A DNA stretch of 45,765 nt from Candidatus Poseidoniaceae archaeon. Lineage in GTDB: Archaea; Thermoplasmatota; Poseidoniia; Poseidoniales; Poseidoniaceae. Positions 31,220-39,995 of the stretch are shown here, piece after piece (the stretch's first letter is position 1; each line of letters starts with the position of its first letter). The stretch covers positions 1-45,765 of the forward strand of contig JAOMOG010000012.1 of assembly GCA_028353405.1 (NCBI GenBank), read 5' to 3'. The notes beneath the pieces were generated by a model, which ran no database searches, was not told the origin of the DNA, and saw nothing but the letters and a program-made list of their open reading frames with translations. Made by a program: the position numbers and the translations under genes.

Positions 31220-32677
31220 TTACTCTGCTTCAATTATCTCCTGCTCCCACAGGTGACTTGGAGTTGAATCAATTAAACTGCGCTTGTATTTCTTCAAGCG
31301 GTATAATCTATGTATTACGAATCCTGTAATCCAAAGAGAAGGTAGTGAAAGCAATACTGCTTTCCACATTATATCTTCGTGGTAGTCATTGATGATGCGA
31401 ACTTGTACAACTTCATTTTCGCTCGAGCCATTACTATTGCCAGGGTTATGCATAATGATGAGATGGTAATTATTAGGGGAATCTATTTCAAGCATCAAAG
31501 TTGATTGAGGTTCCACAGTATAATATTCGCCTAAAGTCTTCATGATCTCCCAATCAATAGATCCATCCTCCATGGCAGGTTCACTCATTTCAACAATGAT
31601 CACAACAACCTCTAATGTAATACTTTCATGAAGATTAGTTAGATTTGATGAGACGCTCGAACCTGGATTGAACTCTTGAATTATCTCAAAGGTTGAATCA
31701 TCGGCTCCGAGCTGATAGGAGATTCTTGAATCTGCTGTTTCAGATTGGATGTTTACAGACATCAAAATGACAGTGAGCAATAATAGAGCAGCAACACCTT
31801 CAGCGAATACATGCCGCCATACCTTCTTTCTAGTAACTCCCTTGAACATCGGCCCGAAATCATTACGAAGGCGTGGTTGTAAGTGATGGATAAATAATGC
31901 ACCAATTGCACCAATAATGATTCCGAGTGGAATATCAACAACCCAATGGATTCCGAGATAGAGAATTGTGAAAATGAACAATAATGTGTTTATTGCAACG
32001 AATAAATGATATGGCCAGTGGCGCCATTCAGTTATTTTTATTCCCTTTTCCTTTACGTGCAAGTAATTGAGATAGAGGATACCAAATGGAATTGCGACAT
32101 GTAAACTCGGAACGGCATTATCCAGAGGGTCATGCAAAGCATAGAACGAACTATACCAGCCGTCATGATACAATAGAGCATCCATATTGGGGATCCAAGA
32201 AGAAGTAACTTCTACATTGAAAAACAAGTAATATGGTACAGCGAGAGCATAAATGAGTAAATAATTCAAAGCAACCTTATCAGTCATGTCGCGGTCATCG
32301 GTAAATGCAAAGTATACTGTAGTTACATAAATTAAGAATAGATATACGAATAGATAATGGAAGTTTAGAAAATCGGTTAATGCATCATTTTGGAAAGCAT
32401 CTTGAATCCACTTTGTAAAATCTCCTTCAATTGAATATACTAACTCAGTCCAATGTCCAGTTTTTATTTTGATAGGTTCATTTATTGTATCAGTTATTTG
32501 TTTCCATTTTATGATGACAATATATCCAAGGGCGTGAATATAGTATCGCTTATCATGAAAAGTCTGGGCCCATTGACGCCAAGGGACCCTCATTTCTGGA
32601 CGGTGCAGGGTGAACAACCAGCAAATGATTGGAGTGAGGATTACAATCATCAGCATCATGATTGTATATGGTTCCAT
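31220..32677 (-). CDS. PAP2-family membrane phosphatase or phospholipid-head-group transferase
   Basis: About 485 residues with roughly six N-terminal helices. The PAP2 catalytic motifs are VPSLHVAIPFG (motif C2) and YLGIHWVVDIPLG (motif C3, His and Asp). They are set out as in the inositol-phosphoceramide synthase/aureobasidin-type subgroup, where the reaction moves a phospho-head group on the outer membrane face. After the helices comes an extracellular beta-rich part (about 325-450), one more TM helix and a basic tail. This extra ectodomain is unusual for PAP2 proteins. ATG at 32677 is the likely start; an in-frame GTG at 32716 is possible. Confidence 0.75.
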   Translation of the reverse strand: MEPYTIMMLMIVILTPIICWLFTLHRPEMRVPWRQWAQTFHDKRYYIHALGYIVIIKWKQITDTINEPIKIKTGHWTELVYSIEGDFTKWIQDAFQNDALTDFLNFHYLFVYLFLIYVTTVYFAFTDDRDMTDKVALNYLLIYALAVPYYLFFNVEVTSSWIPNMDALLYHDGWYSSFYALHDPLDNAVPSLHVAIPFGILYLNYLHVKEKGIKITEWRHWPYHLFVAINTLLFIFTILYLGIHWVVDIPLGIIIGAIGALFIHHLQPRLRNDFGPMFKGVTRKKVWRHVFAEGVAALLLLTVILMSVNIQSETADSRISYQLGADDSTFEIIQEFNPGSSVSSNLTNLHESITLEVVVIIVEMSEPAMEDGSIDWEIMKTLGEYYTVEPQSTLMLEIDSPNNYHLIIMHNPGNSNGSSENEVVQVRIINDYHEDIMWKAVLLSLPSLWITGFVIHRLYRLKKYKRSLIDSTPSHLWEQEIIEAE

Positions 32678-32804
32678 GGATGTATGGCAATGCCACCTCT
32701 CTTTAGCAGTTGCCACAGTATACAGGGGCGGAATTAGCAGTTTGGCATTAATCGATGATATTCATTAGATGTACGATTATGAATCTCATCGCGAGATACG
32801 ATGC

Positions 32805-32868: not shown

Positions 32869-34020
32869 ATGTATTGCCAAGAACCGGAAAATACATTGAA
32901 GAGTTTGCGTCATGGAATTAGCTTTTTTGACGGTATCGAATTTGATATCAGGATGACGTCCGATAACCAATTAGTAGTTCACCACGACAGGGATGTATCT
33001 ATTCTACAAAGTCGCTTACAAGGTAAAAGTAAGTGGGTTGAAGCATGGACCTTAGCAGATTTAGAGGCGGAAGGTTTTGTCTCTTTCAGAGGAATGTTAG
33101 AAGATCCAGTTATCCGTGAGAATTGGGTGGAAAAAGGAAAAATGGGATGTATTGAGATAAAACGTCCTCATCCTAATGCACCGATGGGTGGAGGATTCTT
33201 TTCACGAAAGAAACATAATCAGCATGTTGCCAACATTATCAAACTGGCAGACAAAATCCTTGATGAATTTAATGTTCCACATGAAAACATGATCTATTAC
33301 GCTTTTCACAAGGGCATGAAACAAAGTACACAACTAGCCAAAACCCTGCGTCCTTGGGCAGCTCTAATTCCATACATCTCTCCATATGGAAACAAAACGA
33401 CCCAGCGCATTCAAAGTTTTCCAACATATATTTCAACACCATTTTCATCATTGATAAAACAACACAATACTATGGGAAGCGCAATGCTACCATGCGCGAT
33501 AGAGTATTTTGTCGCTCCATACAACAAGTTGCCTTTTGGTAAAACTATTGGATTAAAAGGTAAGAATTTACATAACCTAAACAAGTTACGTAAAGGTATG
33601 CCTACATATGTTTGGCCAACCAAACCTGTCAATGAGAAATTGATACTAAATGCTGGACTTACCGGGTTGAGCGATAATGCAAATCACGAATTGACATGGC
33701 TGCCAACAGGTCATGCGCGCTGGGTAAACCCTGGTACACAGCCACTGGATAAGCAACAACAATTATTGTTAGATTCTGCTACAGAAGAAAATCATTTAGA
33801 AATATTGAAACAACTCAAACTTGAAGTTCCTACTTGGGCAGATTGCGATGATGCAAGGAGAAAAGATTTAGTTTCAATGTGGAAAGAAACCTGGAACTGG
33901 AAAAAAACTGTTGACGAACTGTTACAAGATGCAAGTGGTTCTTCACCGCCATGGCAAGTACCACGGTTAATTGGTCACAGGGGTTCAGGAAAAACATCCC
34001 GTCCAGTCATAGGACAATAA
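32869..34020 (+). CDS. glycerophosphodiester phosphodiesterase-like protein with the HRG motif moved to the C-terminus
   Basis: 383 residues. It begins MYCQEPENTLKSL and runs through GIEFDIRMTSDNQLVVHHD (metal and catalytic Glu/Asp/His), CIEIKRP, MIYYAFHK and PTYVWP...LTGLSDN, the successive strands of a GDPD TIM barrel. Normal GDPDs start with an HRG strand immediately before PENTL; here nothing in frame precedes it (in-frame TGA upstream, no other start). Instead, after a 90-residue helical linker, the protein ends PRLIGHRGSGKTSRPVIGQ, which would be the missing first strand and loop (His370, Arg371). Activity would be hydrolysis of glycerophosphodiesters to glycerol-3-phosphate. A non-permuted explanation (tandem remnant or frameshift) is open. 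Confidence 0.75.
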   Translation: MYCQEPENTLKSLRHGISFFDGIEFDIRMTSDNQLVVHHDRDVSILQSRLQGKSKWVEAWTLADLEAEGFVSFRGMLEDPVIRENWVEKGKMGCIEIKRPHPNAPMGGGFFSRKKHNQHVANIIKLADKILDEFNVPHENMIYYAFHKGMKQSTQLAKTLRPWAALIPYISPYGNKTTQRIQSFPTYISTPFSSLIKQHNTMGSAMLPCAIEYFVAPYNKLPFGKTIGLKGKNLHNLNKLRKGMPTYVWPTKPVNEKLILNAGLTGLSDNANHELTWLPTGHARWVNPGTQPLDKQQQLLLDSATEENHLEILKQLKLEVPTWADCDDARRKDLVSMWKETWNWKKTVDELLQDASGSSPPWQVPRLIGHRGSGKTSRPVIGQ

Positions 34021-35187
34021 TCACTCGACGTGACGTAACGTTTGTTGTTCTGCATAATACTTTGGACGGTAAAGTGGAGTACCTTTTCCATTGCGGAATA
34101 CAGTGCGCTCATCTACAATTTGTGCTCCGATTCCCATTACACGGGCCCAGCCAAAGAAGGTCGTGTAGTAGGTTGGGTCTTCAAGGCCAACATGGTGGAG
34201 TAAAGCTCCACTCGCAATGTCCACATTTGCATTTGGATTACTAATTTTTGGATTTTCAGCAAGGACTCTAGGTGCAACTTCTCTTAGAGTGCGAATAATT
34301 TTGAAATTCTCATCATTTGGACAGATTTCTTCTCCAAGAGCAAATTGAGCAGTAGCCCTTGGGTCTTCACTACGAAGAACTGCATGGCCAAAACCGAATA
34401 TTGGTCGTTTTTCTGCTAACTCTCCACGTACGAAACGCTCAACTTCTACAGGATCACTTGTGCCTATTTTGAGAACAAACTCGAGACATGATTGATTTGC
34501 CCGTCCATGTAATGGTCCACTTAGAGCATTCATTGCTCCCGCCATAGCGGAATACACTGTCGCTTTACTAGAGGCAATTGCTTTGCCGGTAAATGTTGAG
34601 AGGTTTCCTCCACCATGATCCATATGTAAGACTAGATATGTTGCAATTACTCGCTCCATTTTGTCATTATCAACTTCGTCTAGGTCTAAGGTTGAAACAA
34701 ATCTTTGAACCATACTCAACGATGTATCATCAGCAGGAATATCCTCGTCTCGACCTTCTCTGACCCTGTGCATTAGGCCCATGATGCGAGGCATGCGAGC
34801 AATTAGATTCATTGCATCTTCTTTCCAATCACCAGTAGTCTCCCACATTCCGATTGTATGAATTGCAACACTGAGCCAGTCCATTGGATGCCCGTATTTT
34901 GGTAGAGTTCTAAACACCGCTACTAGATCACCTGGAATTTCAGCTCTCTTTGCTAAGTCTTCGCGAATCTCCACAGATTGTTGAGGATTTGGTAATTCTT
35001 TATTGAATAATAGATAAACAATATCCTCTGGTGAAAAATTAGTTAATTCGTTAATAGGATATCCACAGTAATGAACTCCTTCAGTAGGGGTGACAAATGA
35101 TGTACGGCAGGTTCCTACTGGGACTCCACGCAATCCTGTGTTTAGATGGGCATTAGTTACTTCCAAAAGAACCTCTTCGTCGCTCAT
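34021..35187 (-). CDS. gltA: citrate synthase (or 2-methylcitrate synthase)
   Basis: 388 residues, the short archaeal/Gram-positive type. Catalytic residues are visible: first His in SGPLHGRANQ, second His in FGFGHAVLRSEDPRA, and Asp in NANVDIASGAL. HMDHGGGNLSTFTGK is a slightly altered form of the usual HELNASTF loop. It condenses oxaloacetate with acetyl-CoA; a methylcitrate role cannot be excluded. The ATG at 35187 has GGAGGG 6 bases before it; the frame upstream to 35220 lacks an SD. It is convergent and directly adjacent to the GDPD gene. Confidence 0.9.
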   Translation of the reverse strand: MSDEEVLLEVTNAHLNTGLRGVPVGTCRTSFVTPTEGVHYCGYPINELTNFSPEDIVYLLFNKELPNPQQSVEIREDLAKRAEIPGDLVAVFRTLPKYGHPMDWLSVAIHTIGMWETTGDWKEDAMNLIARMPRIMGLMHRVREGRDEDIPADDTSLSMVQRFVSTLDLDEVDNDKMERVIATYLVLHMDHGGGNLSTFTGKAIASSKATVYSAMAGAMNALSGPLHGRANQSCLEFVLKIGTSDPVEVERFVRGELAEKRPIFGFGHAVLRSEDPRATAQFALGEEICPNDENFKIIRTLREVAPRVLAENPKISNPNANVDIASGALLHHVGLEDPTYYTTFFGWARVMGIGAQIVDERTVFRNGKGTPLYRPKYYAEQQTLRHVE

Positions 35188-35305
35188 TAATTTCCCTCCA
35201 ATGCAACGGAAAAGCCACACTCATATAAGTGCGGTCCTAATTTGAATACTTACTAGAGGTTGGTGTTGCTAAAAACACTTAATGTGTTTGACTGACATTG
35301 TTATT

Positions 35306-35770
35306 TTATTTTTTACCCTTCACCGGCCACTGACGAAACCCTCTACTCGATTCACGATCTGAAAAAATTTGTATTCTAATGCTATTACCATCGATCAATA
35401 TTACATCCTCTGCAGTAAGCCCGGGACATTCCTCAACTACTCGATTCCACGACCTTTCAGTTGCAAGGTTTTCACCCCACCAAGGAAATGCTGCACATTG
35501 TTGAGGTCTTACTTTGTAGATAGTGCATTGCTTGTTTTCATCTAAATTAATACAGATCTCATCTTCAGCTCTACTTTGTAAAATATATCGGCCATCAATT
35601 GTTTGTTTGCAATCTCTTTTCAACCAACTTTCGACATCCATTCCATGGTGTTCAGAGATTCTCAGTGCGTCCTTTTCTGATAGATAGACAATTCCGCCGG
35701 GTTCATCACAGCACCGGCCGCAATTTGATTGACATTTGAACGGAACCCCGTCCATCCACCATGGTTTCAT
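35306..35770 (-). CDS. YkgJ/UPF0153 family Cys-cluster protein
   Basis: 154 residues. The N-terminal FKCQSNCGRCCDEPGG carries the CxxxCxxCC signature; later Cys residues occur in EICINLDENKQCTIYKVRPQQC and EECPG. The family is thought to bind Zn or an Fe-S cluster and is sometimes described as a protein-modifying or chelating domain; the function is not established. Its ATG overlaps the stop of the AAA+ gene (ATGA), so it is translationally coupled as the last gene of the DUF835/AAA+ operon. Confidence 0.85.
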   Translation of the reverse strand: MKPWWMDGVPFKCQSNCGRCCDEPGGIVYLSEKDALRISEHHGMDVESWLKRDCKQTIDGRYILQSRAEDEICINLDENKQCTIYKVRPQQCAAFPWWGENLATERSWNRVVEECPGLTAEDVILIDGNSIRIQIFSDRESSRGFRQWPVKGKK

Positions 35771-37944
35771 TCCTCTTCACCTGAACTTTGGCCTGCAATA
35801 TGTAGTGCTAATTCCGGAGGTTTATCGATATGATTTTCATTGGTGCTTTTGGGAGTTTTTATTACTCGAACTATTTTTTCCTTAACAGGTTGTTTTACTA
35901 CCTTAGAATCTAGTGCACTATCATCTAATAAATCTGTCATGTCGATATTTTCTGCCTGAATATTCCATTCTCCTTCAGGTTCAAAACTATCCAATGATTG
36001 TTCGTAACTATCAGTATTCTTTACAACTTTTTTTGGGCTGCGGCGAGTAACCTTTCTCTTTGATTTCCCCTTTCTTCTCTTAGCGACTCGCCGAGGTTTA
36101 GCGTCTTCTTCAAACGGTGGAAGCTCTTCTCTAGTTGGATCAATTGCAACTAATTTTTCTTCAAGATGACGTAATTCATCAGCGATAGCAATTAATTCTT
36201 CAATATCTGCACTACCCGCTTTTTGTGCTAATTCTAGCATTTTATCCTCAAGGTCACTAAGGAGTATTGAATTATTAAACACCTCTAATTCTGCATCTCT
36301 TATTCTAGAATCAATCCTATCATCTAATTCGGTTAAAATATCTGCAGCTCGGCCATAATCTCGTTCTTCAATACGATTAGGTCGTGCAATTAAATGCTGC
36401 TCATTTTCGTTTACACTCAGCACGGAAGGTGCTTCGGGTGTTAAATCCTCAAGTGTTGTATGAACAAACTTTTCAAGCATTTCCCCACCATCCAATGACA
36501 TATCATTTGCATCCCATTGCGGTGGCTGATAATCATCCTTTTCCGGTTCAGGAATATTACGAACTAAGTCAATTCCGCCAATATCATGAACAGAATAGAC
36601 TGTGTCGACTGCATCAGTAATCAACCGAGTTGCGATATCATCTACATTGTGGCGAACGATTTCATCTTGAATTTCAGATTGATGCAGTATTTCATCCCGT
36701 AATGTGCGAATGACATCTTCTCCATCGAGTATATCGTCTCCGGATTCAATCGCAAGAGCAATCTTATCAAAATTAGCAATAGTACTTCTCCAACCGATTT
36801 GATTGAAGGTGACAATGCTGGTCATCTGCCCATCATCTAGCATTAGGTTCCTTGAACCAGCTAATCTTCTTGTAAACATTACCAGGCTTGTAGCAGTTGG
36901 AATTTGCATATGAGTTTGAGCAGAATTACGGCAGATATCCCAAAGACGGGAAGAAGGCCATTCATCTGGAGACTCTACGCTTGTGAGAATCACATGTACT
37001 CCTAAGTTTATTGCGTGGTCGATCATTATTCCAATCTGATTGGCCAAATTGATATCATCTGCAATAATATGAGCATCGTCAATCGCCAAGAGACTTGCCC
37101 CAACTAGTGCTTCTTGCCAATCGTTAGGGAGTGTTTCCATTCCAATCAAATCAACAGCACTGATGAGAAATACCAACCCCTCCATTCTTCTAGCTATGCC
37201 TTGCGCAGTTGCGTGAATTAGATGTGAGCGACCGGTTCCGCTTTCACCAATAATAAGTAGCGGATTAAGGCTAGTTCCAGGAGAGTCCACAATTGATTCA
37301 CAGGCTCTACTGGCGTGAGAGTTTTCAGAGCACACAAACCATTGTTTGAATGTACGTTGTGTATCGATTCGCAGTGGTTTAGGCCAAGCTGCTTTAACTT
37401 GTAATGAGCGGCTGTGGTGATAAATTGAATCTTCTTTAACCGCTGCTAATTCATCAGGAAGTGCATTGGTTACTCTCCCTCTCTGTCCATCTAGGACGCT
37501 TAGCCAAATTGGCCTTGCATCACTTTCTATTCCTACATATTGATCTTCTGAATCCATATCTAATGCTAATTCCTCCGACTTCAATAGGCTAATTTCTCTT
37601 AATGATTTAATTCTCCTTGCAGCAATGCTAGCAAAGTCATGGCCGTCATTTTGCAGATTTATCACCGGTGTGTGGCCTCTACTATCAGTGCCTAAATTTG
37701 AATCAGCAATCAAATCAAAGGTTGGCCTTTGGGCTACACCGGTTCGCTGCAAAATACTGCTATGTCGTGTATCGGCAACTGTAGATTTTCCAAGCAGCCT
37801 ATTCATTCTTGATAACGGTAATTTTGGTTTTTCTTGTTTTACAGAAGTTTCCCGCGGGAACTGTAGGCTGTTGACACCATTTTGAATTAATTGATTCTTG
37901 GCCTTCTGTATTGCAAGGTCAAGTCGTTCTTTCCTGCCAATCAT
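35767..37944 (-). CDS. DnaA/Hda-like AAA+ protein with Arg in place of Walker A Lys
   Basis: About 725 residues. The segment TFKQWFVCSENSHASRACES ... LNPLLIIGESGTGRSHLIHATA resembles the entry of bacterial DnaA (TFDNFVVG.SN..A, then NPLFLYG..GLGKTHLLHA). Walker A reads GESGTGRS (about 233-240), so the Lys is Arg239. Walker B is LLAIDDAHII, and sensor 1 is VILTSVESPDEWP, both DnaA-like. After the lid come no recognisable DnaA domain IV, an acidic stretch, a coiled-coil region (about 560-620), a very basic patch KRRKGKSKRKVTRRSPKK and an acidic tail. It probably acts on DNA or as a scaffold; ATP hydrolysis is doubtful. ATG at 37944 follows GGAGG by 9 bases; GTG at 37950 overlaps the preceding stop. 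Confidence 0.75.
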   Translation of the reverse strand: MIGRKERLDLAIQKAKNQLIQNGVNSLQFPRETSVKQEKPKLPLSRMNRLLGKSTVADTRHSSILQRTGVAQRPTFDLIADSNLGTDSRGHTPVINLQNDGHDFASIAARRIKSLREISLLKSEELALDMDSEDQYVGIESDARPIWLSVLDGQRGRVTNALPDELAAVKEDSIYHHSRSLQVKAAWPKPLRIDTQRTFKQWFVCSENSHASRACESIVDSPGTSLNPLLIIGESGTGRSHLIHATAQGIARRMEGLVFLISAVDLIGMETLPNDWQEALVGASLLAIDDAHIIADDINLANQIGIMIDHAINLGVHVILTSVESPDEWPSSRLWDICRNSAQTHMQIPTATSLVMFTRRLAGSRNLMLDDGQMTSIVTFNQIGWRSTIANFDKIALAIESGDDILDGEDVIRTLRDEILHQSEIQDEIVRHNVDDIATRLITDAVDTVYSVHDIGGIDLVRNIPEPEKDDYQPPQWDANDMSLDGGEMLEKFVHTTLEDLTPEAPSVLSVNENEQHLIARPNRIEERDYGRAADILTELDDRIDSRIRDAELEVFNNSILLSDLEDKMLELAQKAGSADIEELIAIADELRHLEEKLVAIDPTREELPPFEEDAKPRRVAKRRKGKSKRKVTRRSPKKVVKNTDSYEQSLDSFEPEGEWNIQAENIDMTDLLDDSALDSKVVKQPVKEKIVRVIKTPKSTNENHIDKPPELALHIAGQSSGEEE

Positions 37945-37946
37945 AC

Positions 37947-39995
37947 TCACTGGCCTCCGTAGCGTTCAATGGCATTCCCTTCTTTGTCATATAGGGTACT
38001 ACTGTCAAGTATTCTTTTTGAACCTAATTCTTTCCATTCTTCTACGACAACATCAATCGTTTTTGAGGATTGAGAACGACTTGCAGATTCTCTCATATCT
38101 TCCTCATTTTGCCTTATCGGATTAATTGAATCTAGGGCCATGGATGGAGTAAGTTTTGTTTCAGTACCAATGGGTCTGATGTCGTCTACTACGTCCAATA
38201 CATTAGGCCCTCCGCTAGTTGGCGGTAGAGTTGCAATATGTTTGGCAGCCAATTGAACAGATGCCTGTTGAAGTTCTAAATCCTGCTTAGGAGATACAGG
38301 TTTGAATGTGCTATCAAGTGCTTTTCTTTGGATGATATCTCGCTCCTTTATTGACCTGAAAAGATGTTTTTCAGGTTGTGCAGTAATTGTGAGTTCTGGA
38401 AGGTCTGGAGAATCTTTAGCAACTTGAATTGCAGCATTTGCTTGCATTGTATGCTTTCTATTGGTGATCGGTGGGAGATTGACACTCTTCTTTGTTCTCT
38501 TTACAATAGTGGCTTTTCTCGGACCAGTTGTTTTAGTTGGAATTTGTTTTTGAATTGGAAGTTGCTCAATTACTGGGTTTGAGACAGAATCTAAATTCTC
38601 TTCTTCAAGAGTCTGTTGCGCAGCTATCGGTTGTACTCCTTTGGCGGCAGATTTCTCAATAGTTTCTCCACTGTGGAATGTTGGAGTCCAATCATCGCTT
38701 GGTCCTTGCGCACTAGGTGGAGTTGTAGATTGGGAAGTTTCGTTTTGCATCATTGATTCAATTTCCGAATCACCAGCCCACTCTTGCATCATTGCAGATA
38801 GGTTTCCTGTAGCATCGCTAATCTCTTGAGGGTCTAATGATTCTTCACCACCAGATATTCCATGCATAGAATCAGCTGCACTTGCCGGTGATTGTAAATT
38901 AACTGCTAATACCTTTTTCAATTGAGATTCTATCCATAGGACTTCATCTTGGTCGGGAGTCATACAAATTGGATGGTCTAGTAATAGATCATCTTCTAGC
39001 AACCAGTGGTCTAGGGTTTCTGGTTTTACCACATCTAACTCACGAGTCAATAATTGCCTTTTGGATAAGTTGAATGCAGTTAAGTCGGCAGTGGAAAGGA
39101 ATAAGTGATCTTCTAATTTCACTCCATCGCAAATATCTCTGATCATTCCAATCATTCGCTCATCACCATGGATGCTGGCCAAATATTCTAATCCCTCAAA
39201 AGCAACTACTGCTCTCTTATTAGCCCACAAAAAAGCGTCAATTTTCATTCTAATTGTCTCTAGGGACGGATCGAGTGAGTTATCAGTTTCTGCATTACTT
39301 AGCCATGAACACGATTCAATCGGCAAATCATATTTTACATTCAATTCTTCTACTTCGTAACGAGAAATAACAAGAACTGGTCTTCCATGTGTTGCTAAAT
39401 CACTAGTTAATTGGAATAATTTTGCTGGGTCTTCACTATCATAAATGAGTGCTTGGCCTGGACTCAACATCTCTACAATGCCGCCATGCCGTTCAAGCAT
39501 CGCCTTGCTTTTTTGACGGATGAATTCAGGTGTCTCAACTGAAGGTTCTAATTCTGGCAGTCTTTCTTCACGCTTCCATGTGGATTTTAGAATACGTGAT
39601 TTTGTCCACCACTCTCCTTCTCCCTCTCGGTGATTCGAAATATTCTCGGCCTCAAGGTCAAGATATGCTGCCGGGAATAATTTAGCGATAACATCAACAT
39701 CCTCTATTTCTTGTACGTGAAGTGAAATTGTAGCATCAAGTGCCGAACAATCACTTTCAATCTCAAGTAATGCCTCCAAACCGGTAAGTAGGTTATCTGC
39801 TTCATGCAGGGCTAAGATTGGTTTCCCTTCTCTTAGAACTATTTGGCTGATTCTAGGCATTATCCCCTTAGGTCGGCGTTCAATTCGGATGTGTCCTGAA
39901 CGACCAAGTCTAGCCATATCATTGGTCAAACGAGCCAATATGTCAGCACCGCCGCGGCGAGATTCAACAACTTCCCCCTGCGCTAATTCAACCAT
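37947..39995 (-). CDS. DUF835-domain protein with long disordered tail
   Basis: About 682 residues from ATG 39995. An N-terminal alpha/beta domain (about 1-110; MVELAQGEVVESRRGGADIL) resembles DUF2226/DUF4388-type modules. DUF835 spans about 178-322, with ALIYDSEDPAKLFQL, VLVISRYEVEELNVKYDLP, WLS and the hallmark VVAFEGLEYLASIHGDERM. The following 350 residues are mostly low-complexity (Ser, Gln, Pro, Thr), with a conserved-looking short C-terminal block DVVVEEWKELGSKRILDSS. DUF835 occurs in archaeal signalling proteins, with unknown function. The stop overlaps the GTG of the AAA+ gene, and an ATG/GTG frame extends to 40082 across a palindrome. Confidence 0.75.
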   Translation of the reverse strand: MVELAQGEVVESRRGGADILARLTNDMARLGRSGHIRIERRPKGIMPRISQIVLREGKPILALHEADNLLTGLEALLEIESDCSALDATISLHVQEIEDVDVIAKLFPAAYLDLEAENISNHREGEGEWWTKSRILKSTWKREERLPELEPSVETPEFIRQKSKAMLERHGGIVEMLSPGQALIYDSEDPAKLFQLTSDLATHGRPVLVISRYEVEELNVKYDLPIESCSWLSNAETDNSLDPSLETIRMKIDAFLWANKRAVVAFEGLEYLASIHGDERMIGMIRDICDGVKLEDHLFLSTADLTAFNLSKRQLLTRELDVVKPETLDHWLLEDDLLLDHPICMTPDQDEVLWIESQLKKVLAVNLQSPASAADSMHGISGGEESLDPQEISDATGNLSAMMQEWAGDSEIESMMQNETSQSTTPPSAQGPSDDWTPTFHSGETIEKSAAKGVQPIAAQQTLEEENLDSVSNPVIEQLPIQKQIPTKTTGPRKATIVKRTKKSVNLPPITNRKHTMQANAAIQVAKDSPDLPELTITAQPEKHLFRSIKERDIIQRKALDSTFKPVSPKQDLELQQASVQLAAKHIATLPPTSGGPNVLDVVDDIRPIGTETKLTPSMALDSINPIRQNEEDMRESASRSQSSKTIDVVVEEWKELGSKRILDSSTLYDKEGNAIERYGGQ

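Follow-up and report, generated by a model that had tools for sequence, protein, structure and literature searches.

A probable natural one-strand circular permutation of a GDPD in the archaeal order Poseidoniales

The gene at positions 32869 to 34020 (forward strand) of the window, the 45,765-nucleotide stretch of contig JAOMOG010000012.1 (Candidatus Poseidoniaceae archaeon, assembly GCA_028353405.1) that was analysed, very probably encodes a glycerophosphodiester phosphodiesterase (GDPD) of the TIM-barrel type with a natural circular permutation by one strand, which arose in the Poseidoniales lineage. A possible permutation was proposed in the initial annotation of the stretch and is supported here by orthologues, by a rotation test and by structure models. 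The protein is regarded as a permuted variant rather than as an ordinary member of the family because its HRG strand is C-terminal and does not lie ahead of the ENT segment. Circular permutation occurs naturally in other enzymes. A catalytic strand that has changed ends across an order would offer a natural experiment, with replicates, on folding, evolution and activity. Some genomes have both permuted and ordinary GDPDs, and family models miss the relocated first strand.

Gene and protein features

The gene has an ATG start, which is the first ATG, GTG or TTG past the upstream stop, and a stop codon at 34018-34020. The product of 383 residues begins with MYCQEPENTL and ends with LIGHRGSGKTSRPVIGQ; that it opens at PENTL and carries the HRG strand with its loop at the C-terminus, as was noted initially, is seen in the ORF translation. 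In ordinary GDPDs the PENTL-type segment comes after the first strand. Here PENTL (residues 6-10, 32884..32898) stands at the N-terminus, and PF03009 matches the protein with 45.4 bits (cut-off 23.6), residues 6-67 lying on profile positions 9-67. As Pfam covers these residues only, annotation would read the gene as an N-terminally truncated enzyme. It is the sole PF03009 match in the window genome, which is 65.9% complete.

The remaining elements follow along the same strand. E24 and D26 (E-x-D in strand beta2, 32938..32946) are predicted metal ligands, and H39 (32983..32985), in the GDPD insert after beta2, is the predicted second catalytic histidine. The EIK motif of strand beta3 (33154..33162) holds E96 and K98, which we take to be a further metal ligand and the active-site lysine, respectively. 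DSSP on the model places the strand that precedes the linker, taken to be beta8, at residues 265-268 (33661..33672). After it come the linker (residues 269-364, 33673..33960), for which the model gives helices at 295-302, 309-319, 328-342 and 348-354, and the first strand in its new place with the catalytic loop, PRLIGHRGSGKTSRPVIGQ (residues 365-383, 33961..34017), identified by conservation, by a predicted strand at 367-369 and by the rotation test. The codon of H370 is 33976-33978. No signal sequence was seen by eye, so that a cytoplasmic enzyme is likely.

Two details of the initial annotation were revised, the loop at the join and the neighbouring gene (see below). The end of the chain joins its start cleanly, but the resulting loop from HRG to PENT is longer, with 16 residues where the ordinary consensus HRGASGKYPENT has about 5. 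The linker, initially put at 90 residues, is helical as described and about 98 residues long in the window protein; it is shorter in L045, L055 (73 residues), L056, L104 (about 59, counted by hand) and L105.

Distribution, genome context and history

The family profile matches 228 of 243 Poseidoniales genomes and all 22 sampled genera (E <= 1e-5). Among the matches listed, most cover nearly the whole profile and a few are weak or partial, e.g. those of G006, G418, G440 and G504. A protein search found relatives in 55 of 59 near genomes, the window's own genome counted, and a single-protein scan of genome contigs, a method that reaches close relatives only, gave six loci, named as Poseidoniales, Poseidoniaceae or Euryarchaeota archaeon. 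A pattern search of viral contigs matched 77 stretches, and a relative is encoded in none of these.

The window protein was aligned with the products of 50 loci (51 proteins). The 13 loci left out of the total of 63 were the window's own gene (L001, L002), copies of L003 and L006 (L033 and L007, respectively), one gene with a run of N (L004, L037, L061), another locus with such a run (L031), contig ends or fragments (L011, L062, L063, L060) and L059, whose ORF ends before HRG. Start codons were chosen by the analysts as the nearest ATG at most 30 codons upstream of the motif, or else the nearest GTG or TTG; for L024 a near GTG was preferred over a farther ATG. PF03009 matches all 51 members at E <= 0.01.

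A citrate synthase gene (34021..35220, reverse strand) is the conserved neighbour, located downstream and convergent in 48 of the 50 loci and present in both families of the order. The next gene had been described as convergent and as starting right after the stop; the orientation holds, and it is the end of the citrate synthase gene that lies there, at 34021. On the other side is a divergent gene for a PAP2-superfamily membrane protein of 498 residues (31220..32716, reverse strand; PF01569, E 1e-6). A gene of this kind, upstream and divergent, was found at 29 of the 50 loci, which belong to the genus of the window or to close relatives of it; none was found at the 21 loci from the other family. 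The tatC gene is nearby in at least the 20 of 50 loci where it could be seen, many loci being too short to show it: three near the window and 17 of the 21 of the other family. A protein of 727 residues encoded at 35767-37950 (reverse strand) contains an ATPase domain of the bacterial DnaA type (PF00308, E 1.7e-11), which is unexpected in an archaeon; 8 of the 50 related loci have similar sequence near citrate synthase, a lower bound given how many of them are short.

In the phylum as a whole, 187 of 389 genomes have a PF03009 match. Positive genomes outside the order number 67 (counted by eye), seven of them in the same class, and among the matches listed, those of 66 of the 67 all start at profile position 1, with no permuted GDPD among them; a second match in G357 was left out of this tally. 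The remaining genome, G145, was rejected as a permuted case, having a truncated frame (profile 65-240) next to a transposase-like ORF, with no HRG at its end. A truncated GDPD frame at L116 (1468-1953, reverse strand), from another family of the phylum, adjoins ORFs labelled by eye as transposase-like and FAD-dependent oxidoreductase-like.

Some Poseidoniales genomes contain ordinary GDPDs (L077, L094, L095), with HRG near the N-terminus in L077 and L094 and GHRL in L095; in G311, G275, G400 and G051 an ordinary and a permuted copy occur together. L095 to L098, from the other family of the order, are short second GDPD-like frames of 193-236 residues, matched by PF03009 from position 2 to 117-176 only, and the ordinary strand order was read in L095 alone.

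Since the listed matches outside the order start at profile position 1 in 66 of 67 genomes, the rearrangement probably arose in the ancestor of the order. The citrate synthase neighbour shared by both families points to one event before the family split, followed by vertical descent. The gene would have come about by duplication and fusion, acquiring new start and stop sites, before the two families diverged. Another route to the same topology, loss of the N-terminal strand and its replacement by a partial 3' duplicate instead of duplication and fusion of the whole gene, is possible, if rather unlikely. Just one strand differs in position, and no tandem intermediate was noticed among the loci read; nothing decisive speaks against this route. 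It bears on the history of the protein and not on its anatomy, as the end product is identical.

Predicted structure

The AlphaFold2 model from the alignment of the window protein has a mean pLDDT of 92.8 and a pTM of 0.92, with strands at residues 22-29, 35-37, 92-97, 141-145, 163-165, 207-210, 246-251, 265-268 and 367-369. The pLDDT is 96 in block 361-370, and 75 and 46 in the residues after it. For L055, a shorter member that belongs to the other Poseidoniales family, a second model reached the same mean pLDDT (92.8) and pTM (0.92), with a strand at 338-341 immediately before R342 and a pLDDT of 97 in block 331-340. In both models the LIG or LIGH just before the C-terminal motif is a confident beta strand. 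The structure prediction suggested in the initial annotation as a check thus yields the C-terminal strand before HRG at high confidence. This strand would pack beside PENTL and beta2, so that beta1 would dock between beta2 and beta8.

Nearly all of the best 50 PDB matches in Foldseek are GDPD-type enzymes, with T. maritima 1o1z at E 1.1e-7 and TM 0.64 by target length; model and PDB matches together predict a GDPD-type TIM barrel. The beta1-alpha1 loop of GDPDs lies at the catalytic mouth of the barrel. In the permuted protein, both start and end of the chain would be placed in this loop, the old termini being bridged by the helical linker (about 60-98 residues), and the chain would finish with beta1 and its HRG motif.

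A strand at a free chain end behind a long linker is also what domain swapping might use, the C-terminal HRG strand of one subunit completing the barrel of a second, so that an active site would exist only in the oligomer. Swapped and unswapped forms should share the same sequence evidence. Exchange between subunits is nevertheless improbable, given single-chain models with a pTM of 0.92 and a linker whose length ranges from about 98 down to about 59 residues with the strand kept throughout.

Conservation and rotation test

All 51 aligned proteins have the E or Q of the ENT-type motif (ENT or ENS) within residues 7-12 and the HRG histidine at a distance of 8-17 residues from the C-terminus (inclusive count), and HRG is absent from the first 60 residues of every one; four further members inspected by eye (L104, L105, L107, L108) have the same ends. 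E24, D26, H39, E96, K98, H370, R371 and G372 are invariant in 51 of 51. Between the window gene and five relatives, dN/dS is 0.05-0.10, and the last 19 codons show 5-12 synonymous against 0-3 non-synonymous changes in the five pairs. The tail is under purifying selection.

Similarity to the parent family increases on rotation, as expected of a circular permutant, when profile is compared with profile. For reference, a profile was built from 33 ordinary GDPDs of the phylum, including two from Poseidoniales (one of 34 was dropped for a wrong frame). The native alignment scores 124.4 and is aligned from template position 16. Columns of the tail were moved to the front one by one up to 60, then in steps of six. 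The score is 123.8-124.4 with 0-13 columns moved, rises from 14 columns on to 143.5 at 19, and stays at 142.8-143.9 from 19 up to 156. None of 100 column-shuffled tails reached 143.5 (maximum 137.8, mean 125.4). When 35 other segments of 19 columns were prefixed, the three that overlap HRG gave 143.1-149.1, whereas 125.2 was the highest score among the remaining 32. The canonical profile aligns only poorly with residues 225-300 of the query (score 19.3, probability 3.8); judged by alignment, the second half of the barrel has diverged strongly from that of ordinary GDPDs.

With single sequences, the gains on rotation are small or mixed. The rotated window protein scores 49.8 instead of 45.4 bits against Pfam, a gain of 4.4 bits, and is now matched from profile position 1. 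One NCBIfam family scores lower (22.2 vs 25.8) and the other slightly higher (23.5 vs 22.6). In phmmer searches of the PDB with the rotated protein, 9 of 10 hits do not extend into HRG; only 2otd_A does, at a score below the unrotated one (16.0 vs 17.2). The relocated piece is one strand, 19 of 383 residues or 5%. A search tool for circular permutations is described as asking for a permuted piece of at least 20% of the chain, loosened to 10% (PMC2395249); the tail lies below both values, which are a search criterion and not a definition.

The C-terminal HRG might instead belong to a tail of different function, on a GDPD remnant without a first strand. This is very improbable. The small contribution of the tail in single-sequence searches would suit such a remnant, as would L059, the one complete ORF seen without the HRG strand, with HRG-x-G absent from all three frames of its strand. 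Against it stand the tail HRG, invariant along with the catalytic residues of the barrel, the gain in the rotation test, the purifying selection on the tail, and the strand predicted there at a pLDDT of about 96. The genome with L059 (G037; L059 on the reverse strand) also has, as a separate and short GDPD-like ORF, L095, GHRLGASGTTAENTL, in which the order is the ordinary one. L059 may be a permuted copy in decay or may reflect a sequence fault.

A frameshift, mis-assembly or wrong start that hides a real protein with N-terminal HRG has next to no probability, even in a genome as fragmentary as that of the window (54 contigs at the completeness given above), as many other genomes have identical ends, relatives across the order share them, none of the 51 orthologues has the N-terminal HRG named in the initial annotation as the refuting observation, and an in-frame stop is the codon immediately before the start in L017, with a single codon between the two in L040 and L056. 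A remnant HRG upstream of the start was likewise rejected. No HRG-like word is found in any of the three frames of the 300 nt upstream of 32869, and among the 51 loci such words occur in only three, beyond a stop in L008 and out of frame in L032 and L051; the word of L032 is missing in the window, and that of L051 in L052 and L053.

Predicted activity

The GDPD catalytic set of HRG, E-x-D, insert histidine and E-x-K is complete, each being identical in all 51 proteins. In the permuted barrel, H370 and H39 would be the paired acid/base histidines, and E24, D26 and E96 would bind a divalent metal as in ordinary GDPDs. Glycerophosphodiesters (lipid headgroup diesters) would be cleaved to glycerol phosphate and an alcohol. 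In LpgD of S. aureus the HRG histidine is presumably His51, whose place H370 would take. His51, the metal-binding Glu78 and the insert histidine His93 of LpgD are reported to carry the reaction through a cyclic intermediate, and the spacing of Glu78 and His93 is that of E24 and H39, 15 residues (PMC10404611). From this correspondence of residues a metal-dependent glycerophosphodiesterase is predicted. The LpgD variant H51A is reported to keep significant activity (PMC10404611), and by analogy an H370A exchange may reduce rather than abolish activity.

With beta1 and HRG made last and the two termini placed at the active-site mouth, the permutation could be adaptive: the enzyme might stay inactive until release from the ribosome (or until a strand swap in an oligomer), and the free tail might gate or select the substrate. 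This is doubtful; if true, an enzyme would have been redesigned across a whole lineage, and the new form would have become fixed throughout one order of marine archaea.

Comparison with known systems

No published circularly permuted GDPD was found in the searches of open-licence papers; a report elsewhere is possible. Permuted TIM barrels are already known, e.g. transaldolase (PMC2213659, PMC2395249), and permuted folds are described in other protein families (PMC9503650). Transaldolase B, compared with class I aldolase, is likewise a natural circular permutation of a barrel enzyme; it belongs to another superfamily and is described as shifted by two alpha/beta units, whereas the permuted GDPD is shifted by one strand (PMC2213659).

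LpgD (8ghh), which is reported to convert lysophosphatidylglycerol to lysophosphatidic acid by a mechanism tested with mutants, has the two histidines and the metal site that are predicted here (PMC10404611). Unlike the permuted protein, it has the canonical strand order. In the initial annotation the pattern GHRGxGK...ENT was likened to that of eukaryotic GDE1-type GDPDs, a resemblance that may exist. The predicted fold resembles ordinary members of the GDPD/GlpQ family (PF03009), namely T. maritima TM1621 (1o1z), T. tengcongensis 2pz0 and T. kodakarensis 4oec (Foldseek E 1.1e-7, 8.3e-7 and 1.4e-7, respectively). Ordinary GDPDs and the permuted protein have in common the ENT segment, E-x-D, the insert histidine, E-x-K and the HRG motif. 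The permuted protein differs from them in having the HRG strand last, a longer loop after HRG, an additional helical linker and a very diverged second half.
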